Under the pieces are notes generated by a model. It saw only the letters and a program-made list of their open reading frames with translations, ran no database searches and was not told the origin of the DNA. Of a stretch of 64,000 bases of DNA, positions 3,672-26,472 are shown piece by piece (within the stretch, counting starts at the first letter, position 1; every line of letters begins with the position of its first letter). This DNA is from Elusimicrobia bacterium HGW-Elusimicrobia-1 (lineage in GTDB: Bacteria > Elusimicrobiota > Endomicrobiia > PHAN01). The DNA is taken from assembly GCA_002841695.1 (NCBI GenBank), contig PHAN01000003.1:1-64000 (forward strand), written 5' to 3'. Made by a program: the position numbers and the translations under genes.

Positions 3672-4895
3672 ATGATAAGAAAGTTTCTATTCTGCGGCAT
3701 GGCTTCCGCGTTGTGCTCTACCGTTTTTGCGCAAGACGTAAAGATTACGCCGGTCGCCTCGGTCACACTGGGCGGCGGGCGGTATTTTTATTCGGGGGCG
3801 GCTTCAAACGGCGGTTCGGCGGACGCTTATCTTTGTCCCGTGGTGAACTTTTCGCGCGACACCGCTCTTTTGCCTATGTATTTCGGGACATACCGCGGCA
3901 CCAAGGATGTCAGAGAACTTGTGGGCGGCGGAACGCTTACTCAGGAGACGCAGGATCACGCGCTTACGCTCAGGTTTATAACGAGATTGTCGGATGACTG
4001 GCGACTGCGCGCTCGCGGAGGATACAAAGTCGAGTATGTCAGAGAAACGGTCGACGAATCGTGGGGCGCCGGACTTTTCGACCAGCGCCGGGCGCTTTTC
4101 GGCATTGAAGGCGAGACAGCCGTCGAGGGCGGCGGCTCGGTTCGATTCGGAGCCGATTATTATGCCATCGTCTATCCCAATTATCAGTCGCTTGTGACAA
4201 AAAGCGAGTTTGAAACTTCGCTGGATACAACCACCTATAAGGAACTCTCCACGAACGCCGGAACCAATCCGCTGGACAACACTAATTTGGCCGTGTCGGC
4301 CTCGTATTCCGGGAAACTTGCCGGAGAATCGGGATATAAAGTTTTCGTCGACGTTATTACAAAGAACTTCAACGACCAGAGTGTCGTTATCGTCGACGGT
4401 TCTTTTTCGCCGGCCATTCGCAGAGACCTGTCGGCCGCTCTTGGCGCGCGTCTTTCGGCCGTGTTCCCGCGCGCCCGCGCGGTTCTGAGCGATACTATTG
4501 AAAACTATTCTTCCAATCAAAATAGTTTCGACGCCGGCGCGGCCAAGTTTCTATCGGGGCATTACAACTATATCGGCAATACTTTTTCTCCGTCGATTTC
4601 TTTTTCGCTCGGCGAGTTCGAGCCGTTTTCGATGTTGAGTATTTTTGCGGAGTTTGCGGGCCGGTATTACTCGTCTCGTCCGGCCCAAAGCGCCACCGGC
4701 GTGTATACTTCCGACAAGATGTATCAGGCGACCCAGACGGCAGGGCTTTCGTTTACCCATCCGATTTACAAGGGATTTTCGGCCAGGATGACGTCGAGTT
4801 ACCGGACGTCGTACTCGAACAATCTCTTTGAGGGCAACTATAAATACAACTACGACGTGTTCTCCTATTTTATGGGGATAAACTGGGATTTATAA
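3672..4895 (+). CDS. Putative outer-membrane beta-barrel protein
   Basis: 407 residues with a signal peptide (RKFLFCGMASALCSTVFA, cut near residue 20). The mature part alternates polar and hydrophobic residues in strand-sized blocks rich in Tyr, Gly and Ser, and it ends in an aromatic/hydrophobic C-terminus (FMGINWDL), as expected for a BamA-assembled barrel. No specific porin family is recognised. It follows the FecR gene by 61 bases and precedes the giant exported protein, and a hairpin terminator candidate sits just after the stop. A role as surface channel or anchor for this block is inferred from position only. Confidence 0.7.
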   Translation: MIRKFLFCGMASALCSTVFAQDVKITPVASVTLGGGRYFYSGAASNGGSADAYLCPVVNFSRDTALLPMYFGTYRGTKDVRELVGGGTLTQETQDHALTLRFITRLSDDWRLRARGGYKVEYVRETVDESWGAGLFDQRRALFGIEGETAVEGGGSVRFGADYYAIVYPNYQSLVTKSEFETSLDTTTYKELSTNAGTNPLDNTNLAVSASYSGKLAGESGYKVFVDVITKNFNDQSVVIVDGSFSPAIRRDLSAALGARLSAVFPRARAVLSDTIENYSSNQNSFDAGAAKFLSGHYNYIGNTFSPSISFSLGEFEPFSMLSIFAEFAGRYYSSRPAQSATGVYTSDKMYQATQTAGLSFTHPIYKGFSARMTSSYRTSYSNNLFEGNYKYNYDVFSYFMGINWDL

Positions 4896-5055: not shown

Positions 5056-8000
5056 ATGAAAAAAACAATTTTCGCAAAATCAGTCGCATCGGCGGCTATA
5101 ATTGCGCTGGCTGCCGTGTCTGTTCGCGCGGCCACGCTGAAAGTAAAGGTTGTGGACGATACGACATCGGCGGGTATCGAAGATGTCGCCGTGATGGCAG
5201 TGGCTTTTGTGGACGGGTGGGACGAACCGAACGCCGATTATACCCAAGTGAGCAAATCTTCTCCGGCGGGCGCGGCCACTTTCAGCGGTCTGGCCCACCA
5301 AGATTCGTTTTCCAGAAAGATAACCTACAAGATAGCGCTTTCCAAGCACTTTTATCTGCCCTCAATAAAAGAACAAATCAACAACCCCGGCATTCCGAAA
5401 GTATCTTTTCTGAATGCGGGAGACGTCAACGAGCAGTTTCTCAATAATCCTATGAGAATGAGATACGCCCCGTCGGATTTCAGAGCCGGCGCGCTTCATA
5501 TCAGGATTGCCACCACTTCTTTTTCCGGCGGAGAACTCGTAATGCTGGATTTGCGCCATCGAATTACCGGCGAGCCGGTCGGTTTCAGTTTGCAAAAAGT
5601 CCAACTGCCTTCCGTTTCGTCCGATACGCATCTGAGTTTACGGATAACCAACGTTCCTCCCGCTCCGGCCAATACTTACAGAATGCTTCTTGCCAAAATG
5701 AGCACGCCCGACGGCGTCGACGTAGTGATTTCAACCGCGGTGGTTAATTCAACCGAGCCCGCTTCGGGCAACGCGCAAACGGTCGCATTGGGTTTTGTGT
5801 CCACTTCACGTTCCGACGCCGTTTCAATTGACGACACAAGCAGGATAGCTTTTGAGGGCGTGGTTCGCGGACTTGTAAGCGGAGCGATCGTGCCGGTCGC
5901 TAACTGTACCGTCGAGATAAGAGACACTGACCGGTCGCAGGATCCGGAAACCGGCAGAATGTACAGCGACTTCAACAGCTTCAGAACTCTGAGCGACGCA
6001 TCCGGCCGCTTCGTCGTCATGAAGCCGGATACCGGCGATATCAGGCATTCGTCGTATTCGGTGAACGTTTCAAAACTCGGTTTCAAATCGGGCAGCGATT
6101 GGGGCGCCTATCCCGTCGCCGGCGGGCCGGGACGTCTCTACACCGGTTCGCGCATATTACTGCCGCAATACGAATTGCAGGAGGCCACGGGAGCCATACG
6201 GGGAATAGTCACGCTCAACGGCAAACCTTTGCCCGACGCGTATATCTGGATAAGTAATGAGTGGGACAAATTCGTCGGCCCGTATAATTACAGGGGCGAA
6301 GGCGGGCAGTATAGCGTAAACACGCGCGGCGACGGTTCGTTTGATTTTATCGGACTTGCTCCCGGGCAGTACAATATGGGAGTTAATCACAGCGTATTGA
6401 AAGGCAACACCGATTACTGGACGGGCTGGGAGCGTGGCCAGAATGATCCTAATCCGACCGAGGTATGGAACTTCCGCTACACCTATAATTACGGCGAAGA
6501 TCAGAGGTCGAGCCGTCCTGCGTCGGCGTTCGATCCCGATGCCGGCGGGCCTCTGCCTCCCGACTATTACCGTCTTACCGACGACAGAAGGATAGTCATC
6601 ACCGGCGATACGATAAAATCCGTGGTATATTCCACGTCGGGCGCGGTTCTGGTAGTCGCCGGCGGCGATATAAACGTGGCTTTGACGGTAAATATTTCCA
6701 CCCAGGCGCGTATTGCCGGAAATTTTTATTTCCCTGAGTCGGTGTTTATAGCTTCTTCCGACGCAATAAAGGTCATCGCGCATCCCGTTGATCCTTCCAC
6801 GGGACGCTGGCTTGAGCACGACGGACGGGGCACGGTATATTACGCCGATCCCGACGGGATGTCCGGATGGGGCAATCACAAGCCCATAGACATAGAAGTA
6901 TCCACCGGCACATATTACGTCGAGATAAAATCCGACAAATGGGTGCCCGTAAGATCTTTTAACACCCGTGTGACGGTAACGGAACCCGGGTCGGTCGCTG
7001 TATTGCCGCCGATATTTTTGGTGCGGGCCGGACGGCTTGAGGGCAAAATACGCCTTCCCGACGGCAGTTATTTTCAGGCGAAACAAAACTCCGACGGCTC
7101 ATGGAACAGCGCCAACATAGAGGTAAGGGGCACAGGTGTCGACTATCGGCAGAATACACAACTTTATTACGGCGCTCCGGATCCCGCGCGTTTCGTGTTC
7201 GACGCGCTTCCTCCCGGTAAATATGATTTGAGGATTGAACTGAAAAAATACACTCCGTCGGGCGGCAACGGGGCGCCGCTTTATCCCGAGGCGGTCATAT
7301 CCGGCATAAGAGTGCTCAGAGGCGAGACGTCTTTCGTCGAGGCGGGCGTAAAGACCGGCATATTCTGCGAACCGCTCGCGCCCGAACCGCCATTAACCCC
7401 GGAGGTCGACTACACGCCGCGCGGCGGCCCGAATGCGGCGGGATTATACGGAATAATAGGATTTCCGTCGGACTTTACGCCCAAGGGCGCCGATATACAG
7501 GCGCTTATGGAGAACGACGGCCGTCTTGAAGGAATATACGTGCCGTTTTTCGATTACCGGAACGGCGCATGGACGGTTAACGGACTGCACGCGGGCAAAT
7601 ATAATTTCTATATGATGTTCGTGCGGATGTTCGGCGAGCGCGACGCTCTGCCGGGCAACGACGGCCCGCCCAGAAATAACAGAGACGCCTGCTTAACGCT
7701 TATAAGCCGCGCCGAAAACGTGGACGTTAAATCCGACGATCTTGCTCCCTGCGCCAATTTCCAGATAGTTATGGGGGCCGGCGTAATGGGCCCGGGAATA
7801 ATCACGGGTTCTGTGAGGGGCAGTAAAATTCTTACCGAGGCCGACGCCGACACTTACAAGGGCAATATGAAGGAATTGGTCAAAGGTGTAATACCCACCG
7901 CAATGCTCTATGACATGGACGGCAATCTGAGGGGATTTTCGGCCGCAAGACCGCTGCCCGTTCCGGAAGTTATGGGGGCGTGGGACGCGGCTTCAATCTC

Positions 8001-24514: not shown

Positions 24515-24539
24515 GTTTGTTTTAAAAGGGCATGTAAAT

Positions 24540-24600
24540 TGTAGCGGCGGGATTGCCATCCCGCCATAGCAAGGGGCCGCATGGCAATGCGGCCGCTACA
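24540..24600. repeat. REP palindrome, copy 1
   Basis: Sixty-one bases, TGTAGCGGCGGGATTGCC to CAATGCGGCCGCTACA, made of two hairpins (GCGGGAT/ATCCCGC and GGCCGCATGGC/GCAATGCGGCC) bounded by TGTAGCGGC/GCCGCTACA ends. A further half copy follows at 24607-24631. An almost identical copy (26252-26312) lies inside the REP-associated transposase gene 1.6 kb downstream. Confidence 0.9.
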
Positions 24601-24606
24601 ATATGC

Positions 24607-24631
24607 GTAGCGGCCGCATTGCTATCGCGCA
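24607..24631. repeat. Half REP sequence
   Basis: GTAGCGGCCGCATTGCTAT matches one end of the full REP at 24540-24600 in inverted orientation and then diverges. It gives the paired arrangement (BIME-like) usual for REP elements mobilised by RAYT enzymes. Confidence 0.7.
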
Positions 24632-24996: not shown

Positions 24997-25857
24997 ATGA
25001 TGTTAAAAAGGAGCAATCTTTTCTTTGCAGTTTTCACTGTGCTTTTATTGTCTCCATGTTTAGTTGAATCTAAAACCGTCGATACAAATGAACCCGCCAC
25101 GGATGAACGCACTGCTAAGTTCAATGAAATCCTCAAACTCTCAAAACCAGTAAAAAGTAAAATAAATGTTGATGAAAAAAATGCAAAAGATCTCTTGAAT
25201 GCTTTGCGGCCCCATGAAAATGTGCCATTGACAGATAGGGAAATGACCACGGGAGAATTTTACTATTACATTGAAGGAATAAAATTCGCCGAGTGGTCCT
25301 TAAAAAAGTACAAGGAAGAATCATCGGGCATTAAGGATTTGTTTAAAATCAAAGAACTGAAAGCCAAATATAATCCTGATGTCAGGAAGGAAGAACTAAA
25401 TACTTTTTGGGGGTTGCTTGAAAAAACAACATGGACGCTATCGGTAGGTGTTTCTTTGGGCGACTATGTTGATGGTGGATTTGAAATAAAAGAAAACATA
25501 TCGGGCTTTGAATCCAGCACAAAATCAGATATAAGTTACAGGGATGGGGCTTATTGGCATAAAAGGGCATCTGAAATAGGGGCGCACACAATAAAATTTG
25601 GGAACTCAATAATTTACGACACAACTTTACCTGTTAGTGAGAATAATGCGATAAAAATTCTAAAAAACATTGGCGATGAGCGAGTCGTTCCTATAACAAT
25701 ATTATTTACAGTTAAAAAATATGAAATTGAACACGGAAGGATGGCGTGGGATAATACCGTAAAACTTTATTTAACCGCTAATGCAATAGATGCCCGCATG
25801 GATGTTCCAGAAAAAATTTACGTATATCCTAAACGAATACTAAGAATTAGAAAATGA
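24997..25857 (+). CDS. Hypothetical exported protein, AT-rich
   Basis: 286 residues with a signal peptide (NLFFAVFTVLLLSPCLVES). No domain is recognised. The body is charged and mixed helical and strand, ending in a basic tail (KRILRIRK). GGGGAGGG upstream is a strong ribosome binding site; ATG 24997 or 25000 both work. Codon use is far richer in A and T than the surrounding housekeeping genes. It sits between the decayed toxin-antitoxin copy and the REP transposase, so this 2.5 kb looks like an insertion zone. Confidence 0.6.
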   Translation: MMLKRSNLFFAVFTVLLLSPCLVESKTVDTNEPATDERTAKFNEILKLSKPVKSKINVDEKNAKDLLNALRPHENVPLTDREMTTGEFYYYIEGIKFAEWSLKKYKEESSGIKDLFKIKELKAKYNPDVRKEELNTFWGLLEKTTWTLSVGVSLGDYVDGGFEIKENISGFESSTKSDISYRDGAYWHKRASEIGAHTIKFGNSIIYDTTLPVSENNAIKILKNIGDERVVPITILFTVKKYEIEHGRMAWDNTVKLYLTANAIDARMDVPEKIYVYPKRILRIRK

Positions 25858-25943: not shown

Positions 25944-26472
25944 GTGAAAGATTTAGCGCTGAAACGACGAAAGGACATCAGGTTAAAAAATTACGACTAT
26001 AAAACCAATGGATATTATTTCGTTACGGTGGTAACTCGCGACAGATTACCTTTGTTGAAAGAATATAGTTCCGACATCGGTGCGGTTGCCGTAGCGCGGG
26101 CAATAAATGATTTGCCGGAGTTTTTTAACGGGCTGGCTGTTGATTATTATGTCGTTATGGACGACCATATCCATATAATTTTTGCTTTTAATGATTGCGG
26201 CAAAACGTTGGGACAGGTCGTCAAAGCGATGAAATATAATATAACTAAAATTGTAGCGGCGGGATTGCCATCCCGCCATAGCAAGGGGCCGCATAGCAAT
26301 GCGGCCGCTACAAAAGCTAATGATATTGCGGTCGCCACAAAAACAATGTGGCAATGGAACTATTACGAACATATAATACGAGACGAGAAGAAACTGGCAA
26401 AAAATCAGGAATTATGTCGCCAATAATCCCGAAAAAGAGATTAACAACTGGGAAGCCGTAGAGAAAAACTAA
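25944..26472 (+). pseudogene. REP-associated tyrosine transposase (RAYT), frameshifted and carrying an internal REP
   Basis: A Y1/HUH transposase of the IS200-like REP-associated group. The N-terminal RRKDIRLKNYDY and YFVTVVTRDR motifs, the HUH motif in VVMDDHIHIIF, and WQWNYYEHIIRDEKKL are present. Translation stops at 26426, but the catalytic-Tyr segment continues in the next frame as IRNYVANNPEKEINNW up to 26472. The shift is at an A6 run (26399-26404), where losing one A restores the frame. A 61-bp REP (26252-26312) is embedded in frame just before the WQWNYY segment, adding about 20 residues. GTG start after GGGGGA. Confidence 0.85.
26252..26312. repeat. REP palindrome, copy 2, inside the transposase gene
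   Basis: Differs from copy 1 (24540-24600) by one base (ATAGCAAT versus ATGGCAAT). It is read in frame as VAAGLPSRHSKGPHSNAAAT within the RAYT coding region. Confidence 0.92.

Follow-up and report, generated by a model that had tools for sequence, protein, structure and literature searches.

RAYTs have been described as single-copy, vertically inherited, domesticated transposases (PMC8049555). The E. coli TnpA_REP (PDB 4er8) with its GTAG REPs (REPtrons) shares with the locus presented here the HUH-Y1 fold and a REP built of a GTAG foot and a hairpin. In E. coli, the REPs flank the TnpA_REP gene, whereas here they also lie inside it. The basic phenomenon of in-frame REPs in RAYT genes was already published in 2018. 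The main text portion of Quentin et al. (PMC6006769) places them inside genes of TnpA_REP subclass 2.4, which corresponds to RAYT group 4, generally between HuH and Y. It further describes a variable insert and, apart from it, one of 8 residues close to where helix alpha-B ends. In-frame REPs, variable insert and alpha-B-end insert are all shared by the genes studied here, but the alpha-B insert is not named a REP in that text. Palindromes read in frame in proteins are also known from intragenic REPs (Di Nocera et al. 2013, PMC3733652) and from Rickettsia RPEs. Their hosts are unrelated genes, whereas here the host is the RAYT itself. Finally, the succession of a sense and an antisense REP, foldable as one stem, resembles a REPIN (REP-spacer-inverse REP), except that the spacer here is the transposase core and that the likeness comes from sequence layout rather than from observed movement.

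The window, i.e. the whole 64,000-nt stretch that was analysed, comprises positions 1-64000 of contig C3 of a draft genome of 2.06 Mb in 25 contigs. Its RAYT gene, the only one of its type in the source genome (G000), starts with GTG and according to the ORF listing with translation codes for 160 residues including the HUH part VVMDDHIHII (Table 1). An earlier note on this DNA had reported that a RAYT gene contains, in frame and separating its HUH part from its Tyr part, a near-exact REP copy. This was borne out by a repeat with two copies in the window, spaced by 1712 nt and 98% identical, of which the in-gene copy is read without a stop as KIVAAGLPSRHSKGPHSNAAAT. The length of 61 bp given for it needs correction: the repeat measures 66 nt and is a sense and antisense REP pair of the BIME/REPIN type (GTAGCGG and hairpin, linker, hairpin and CCGCTAC), accompanied by a third, decayed half-unit further upstream in the gene. 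As single-stranded DNA, the pair is predicted to fold into two hairpins (−23.5 kcal/mol, z −5.5 versus shuffles). Similarity searches of the genome gave 30 matches at E<=0.01, some of them one place counted on both strands, which correspond to about 20-25 places of the family. At the place of the decayed half-unit, at which the hairpin scan of the window did not pick up a unit, the relative L150 has GTAGCGGTGCGATTGCTATCGCAC. The intergenic twin and the in-gene copy share a few bases past the usual REP edge (AAATTGTAG), a hint, too weak to claim, that copying proceeded from the gene to the twin. Beside the RAYT gene, positions 24997-25857 code for a 286-residue protein with a signal-like N-terminus and no Pfam match. 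A second RAYT-like gene (L001, 1357-1815) is intact, of another type and free of in-gene REPs. It is situated directly 3′ of about eight head-to-tail 22-bp units with GTAG (CTTGTCCCCGTAGGCAAAAGGA; L001 1184-1356, genome contig C2, about 99.7-99.9 kb).

Table 1. Positions of the RAYT gene, its parts and the associated REPs in the window.
Feature	Position	Strand	Basis
RAYT (TnpA_REP-like) ORF in the zero frame, with N-terminus, HUH motif and WQWNYYEH, stopping short of the Tyr helix	25944-26426	+	ORF list, NF047646 and Y1_Tnp profile scores, intact relatives
Decayed sense REP half, loop 1 (IGAVAVARA)	about 26076-26102	+	inferred by homology to L150
HIH of the HUH motif	about 26166-26174	+	within the RAYT ORF
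In-frame REP pair (GTAGCGG-hairpin / hairpin-CCGCTAC), loop 2, residues about 102-123	26248-26313	+	98% repeat, ssDNA fold, genome copies
A6 run, beyond which the Tyr part is read in a frame other than the zero frame	26399-26404	+	sequence, ORF list; same-genus L200 open here
Tyr part in the other frame, IRNYVANNPEKEINNWEAVEKN, stop codon at 26470-26472	26404-26472	+	sequence; similar to the same-genus copy
Candidate catalytic Tyr codon	26413-26415	+	Tyr part, other frame
Intergenic twin of the in-gene REP pair	24536-24601	+	66-nt repeat comparison
Single REP half beside the intergenic twin, GTAGCGGCCGCATTGCTAT	24607-24625	+	repeat comparison, genome matches

On the NCBIfam profile NF047646 (REP_Tyr_transpos), the window protein, scored with its Tyr end out of frame, reached 58.8 bits and L150 66.1 bits, both below the cut-off of 80, and the relative L158 reached 88.7 bits. 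By this profile, the window protein is family-like and no formal member. The Pfam Y1_Tnp score of the window ORF (15.9 bits) is below cut-off, as are the scores on NF033573, the IS200/IS605 comparison, where relatives match. The HUH and Tyr motifs of a Y1 transposase occupy separate frames in the window and one intact frame in close relatives. An associated REP family is present, with GTAG foot and hairpin, many genome copies and some of these beside the gene. As the window RAYT also has the in-frame REPs between HUH and Tyr that characterize subclass 2.4 or group 4, its sequence marks it as group-4-like by the feature described in the portion of PMC6006769 cited above. In a protein model of L150 (23 sequences, mean pLDDT 79), strands and helices are arranged in the HUH-Y1 order. 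Confidence falls below a pLDDT of 50 at residues 106-120, within the REP-coded loop 2, which is predicted to be disordered, and the loop-1 residues are placed at a helix start. The best solved relative by sequence is the E. coli protein (4er8; profile match E 1.4e-9).

The earlier note had correctly assigned the catalytic-Tyr part to the next frame after an A6 run. The presence of a homopolymer exactly at the frame change might indicate a slippage site yielding two protein forms. In a genome of the same genus (G001), a RAYT whose C-terminal end adjoins the same downstream gene as in the window (L200) is open in this stretch and has no A6; its contig starts within the RAYT, so that the comparison covers the C-terminal end and not the HUH part. 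Distant relatives likewise have an open frame and lack the run. Moreover, A6 is common in the AT-rich window, with 92 further runs in the 64 kb, and the zero-frame product stops 8 residues on, without the Tyr. Programmed slippage, one of the options named in the note, was rejected on these grounds and its probability is practically nil. Because the Tyr part of the window still resembles its same-genus counterpart IRDYIARNPEKEINDWEAIEN, the break would be either recent or an error of the assembly. It is private to the window, and decay and assembly error are indistinguishable from sequence alone. General frame breakage in the assembly was dismissed since the other window genes are mostly whole in a rough ORF list, with which a single error stays compatible. 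RAYT genes with a stop or frame break just before the Tyr helix, in the same stretch as in the window, were also seen in L266 (R. flavefaciens FD-1) and L162. RAYT genes may often decay by losing the Tyr end.

The 98% identity to a copy 1.7 kb away, together with the broken frame, would be compatible with a single self-targeting insertion into the window gene followed by decay. In contrast to this proposal of the earlier note, relatives with open frames and 61-68% protein identity to the window have diverged REPs of their own at the corresponding loop. Of the full relatives, the nearest (L043 = L150, genome G339; 68% identity over the HUH part, open frame) has the same-loop REP IVAVGLPSHEKSSYSNATA. 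Compared to the window, its first hairpin shows a C-to-T and a matching G-to-A change that keep the pairing (GCGGGAT..ATCCCGC to GTGGGAT..ATCCCAC) although each replaces a residue (A to V, R to H). This REP recurs at about 25 further places in its own genome, two of them exact over 26-27 nt. Diverged same-loop REPs that match the REPs of their own genomes are likewise present in L152 (G335) and L155 (G171), a same-loop REP as in these three in the fragment L199, and half a unit in L148 (G002) and in L154. Homologues thus do have residues at this place, as the note had considered, but those residues are not independent of REP sequences: they are REPs. Since the loop residues of the homologues are themselves diverged REPs, the in-frame REP of this RAYT is either old or has arisen repeatedly, and it does not preclude an open gene. 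A one-off insertion as the full account is refuted by L150, L152 and L155 and is very improbable. The window REP family was found in G000, G001, G002, G335, G339, G171, G172 and G173, which are all searched genomes with this RAYT type plus G001 and G173, and was not found in G340, G341 and G332, the three searched genomes with only other RAYT cores.

RAYT genes from several phyla were collected into a wider set by searching 341 genomes of the phylum with a profile and by scanning genome contigs once. REP units were called by a GTAG-hairpin rule, which misses decayed copies. RAYT ORFs contain 1.57 sense and 1.92 antisense units per kb compared to 0.064 and 0.071 in the 646 other ORFs of the same loci, a 26-fold enrichment by which a chance origin of the in-gene REPs was rejected. 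At least one in-frame GTAG hairpin is present in 41 of 42 non-redundant RAYT genes, across several phyla. The units fall in two loops bracketing the HUH core, loop 1 extending from the first strand to HUH and loop 2 from HUH to WQ, and differ in polarity (27 sense to 3 antisense in loop 1, 11 sense to 39 antisense in loop 2; Fisher p 2e-9). REP identity is higher within a gene than across genes (mean 0.84 versus 0.64; 0 of 100,000 permutations, in a set of genes kin to one another, for which shuffle tests overstate significance). Perfect inverse copies occur in six genes, compared to 0 of 506 cross-gene pairs. In Ruminococcus, where two REP types differ solely at the hairpin tip and each has many exact genome copies, two RAYT genes each hold one type in both loops. 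The reading phase varies by gene (sense 22/5/0, antisense 14/22/3), and the TAG-reading phase is never used by sense units. Because the phase differs between genes, it is the DNA motif that is kept and not one peptide, and selection for one encoded peptide across the class was rejected for the same reason. In a Clostridia genome (G367), six contigs (C9, C16, C20, C22, C25 and C77) all break off inside one and the same RAYT N-terminus. This points to several copies of one RAYT, contrary to the single-copy rule, or to a strain mixture.

Two explanations compete for this pattern with the one we favor. In a view similar to that of Quentin et al. 2018, REPs might be passive passengers that insert near or into the RAYT, survive in tolerant in-frame loops and are kept similar by genome-wide turnover, with no benefit to the gene. 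The predicted disorder of loop 2, the varying reading phases and the intragenic REPs known from other genes (PMC3733652) are in accordance with this idea. However, tolerated accidents would not be expected to show opposite polarity in each of two fixed loops, to match in pairs and to be present in nearly every gene, and in G335 the in-gene pair, one of only two matches of the family in that genome, is kept nonetheless. On balance, we regard a pure passenger origin as unlikely. Alternatively, the in-gene pair could serve the RAYT as a binding site on its own mRNA or gene, or could fold the mRNA over the HUH codons, and thus limit expression. The perfect inverse copies in six genes would suit such a cis-regulatory role, and in the predicted fold of the L071 mRNA both REPs pair in a long perfect stem around the HUH core (z −3.3), a minor support as this one gene was folded in full. 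On the other hand, many pairs are imperfect, and the window pair is confined to loop 2 and would form no long stem. We therefore consider this role quite improbable.

Comparison of closely related alleles revealed that the core and its REPs change together. At a syntenic locus of two species of one genus (L158/L168), the flanks are about 83%, the N-terminal part 98% and the C-terminal part 100% identical, whereas the core is at the level of noise (58%) and the loop REPs differ. Between two R. flavefaciens (L266 is FD-1, L265 a genome assigned to the species), the thrS flank is 100%, the N-terminal part 95% and the C-terminal part 96% identical, with a core of 65% and a REP tip changed in both loops. 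L045 and L050 follow with 90% (N), 59% (core) and 85% (C). When gene pairs with similar ends are compared, their core identities form two humps, at 57-64% and at 80% or more, with few values between. Upstream of thrS in Ruminococcus, some species have an empty site and about 20 carry a RAYT, with at least six REP/core types. Empty sites where relatives have a RAYT were seen in G377, G448, G405 and G466, the flanks lying 9-43 nt apart; such sites would delimit the RAYT unit. In the 21 species (genes) compared at this locus, similarity at the N end goes along with similarity at the C end (Mantel rho 0.51, p 0.0005), and both ends correlate with the flank. For the core, its identity computed with the REPs removed, there is no correlation with the C end (rho −0.03) or the flank (0.12), and a weakly positive one with the N end (rho 0.18, p 0.06). 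REP type separates the cores (72 versus 63%; 0 of 5000 permutations) but not the C ends (p 0.07) or the flank (p 0.08) of these 21 genes. Thus, core and REP pair differ between otherwise nearly identical alleles, and by these comparisons REP type tracks the core rather than the gene ends. As the right edge of the replacement is the WQ motif, some 60 nt past the antisense REP, plain homologous recombination via the conserved ends would suffice. The evidence for exchange comes from Ruminococcus and one family of the Elusimicrobiota phylum; in the window itself, no core exchange was seen, and its loop-1 unit is decayed.

Some genes have lost parts of this arrangement. The 191 nt missing from L082 (about 5130-5150) begin exactly at the GTAG of the loop-1 REP and end exactly at the last C preceding the TAC of the loop-2 REP. 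In L074 (about 4300-4330), the missing piece is precisely the loop-2 hairpin, and its right edge is the same (CCCC/TACGG). Both losses are compatible with hairpin-driven deletion or with enzymatic excision. The L082 loss was not accepted as proof of the latter, as a hairpin can be skipped in replication and L279 and L280 have lost their cores at edges that are not at REPs. A more far-reaching version of our reading, in which the inverted pair of own REPs brackets the core and labels its specificity, REP-core-REP is gained, lost and exchanged as one, perhaps via the enzyme's own cleavage, and L082 represents an excised cassette, is offered as a tentative and rather doubtful possibility.

Taken together, we favor, with a probability of roughly 0.62, a group-4-like RAYT that carries its cognate REP as coding sequence and belongs to a class made of a conserved shell and an exchangeable, self-labelled specificity cassette. 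The shell would consist of the N-terminus and the WQ-NYYEH-Tyr end, the cassette of sense REP, HUH core and antisense REP. By analogy with other RAYTs, for which recognition is known, the enzyme would recognise the in-gene copies, and the REP pair could act as a built-in label linking enzyme and substrate when the core moves. Other RAYT genes might supply replacement cores through recombination or gene conversion, an exchange perhaps begun by the enzyme's own nick at an in-gene REP. The window gene would then combine an in-gene REP pair of old standing with a loop-1 unit that has decayed, and its reading frame would have been lost recently ahead of the Tyr, or be mis-assembled at that point.

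The window locus appears to be a member of a published class, and the bracketed exchangeable core seems new within the literature searched. The main text portion of PMC6006769 contains no opposite polarity in two loops, matched pairs, link between REP type and core, or joint replacement of core and REPs, and a literature search, with many journals outside its coverage, returned no report of polarity, matched pairs or core exchange. The cassette reading addresses the problem of how a RAYT keeps its fit to a REP family that is dispersed and served in trans. If it is true, the cognate REP is coded beside the specificity core, so that the match would be hard-wired and would travel with gene transfer, and a change of REP family would amount to one visible core exchange. 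RAYTs could then be paired with their REPs from sequence alone, and their specificity would be testable by core swaps.
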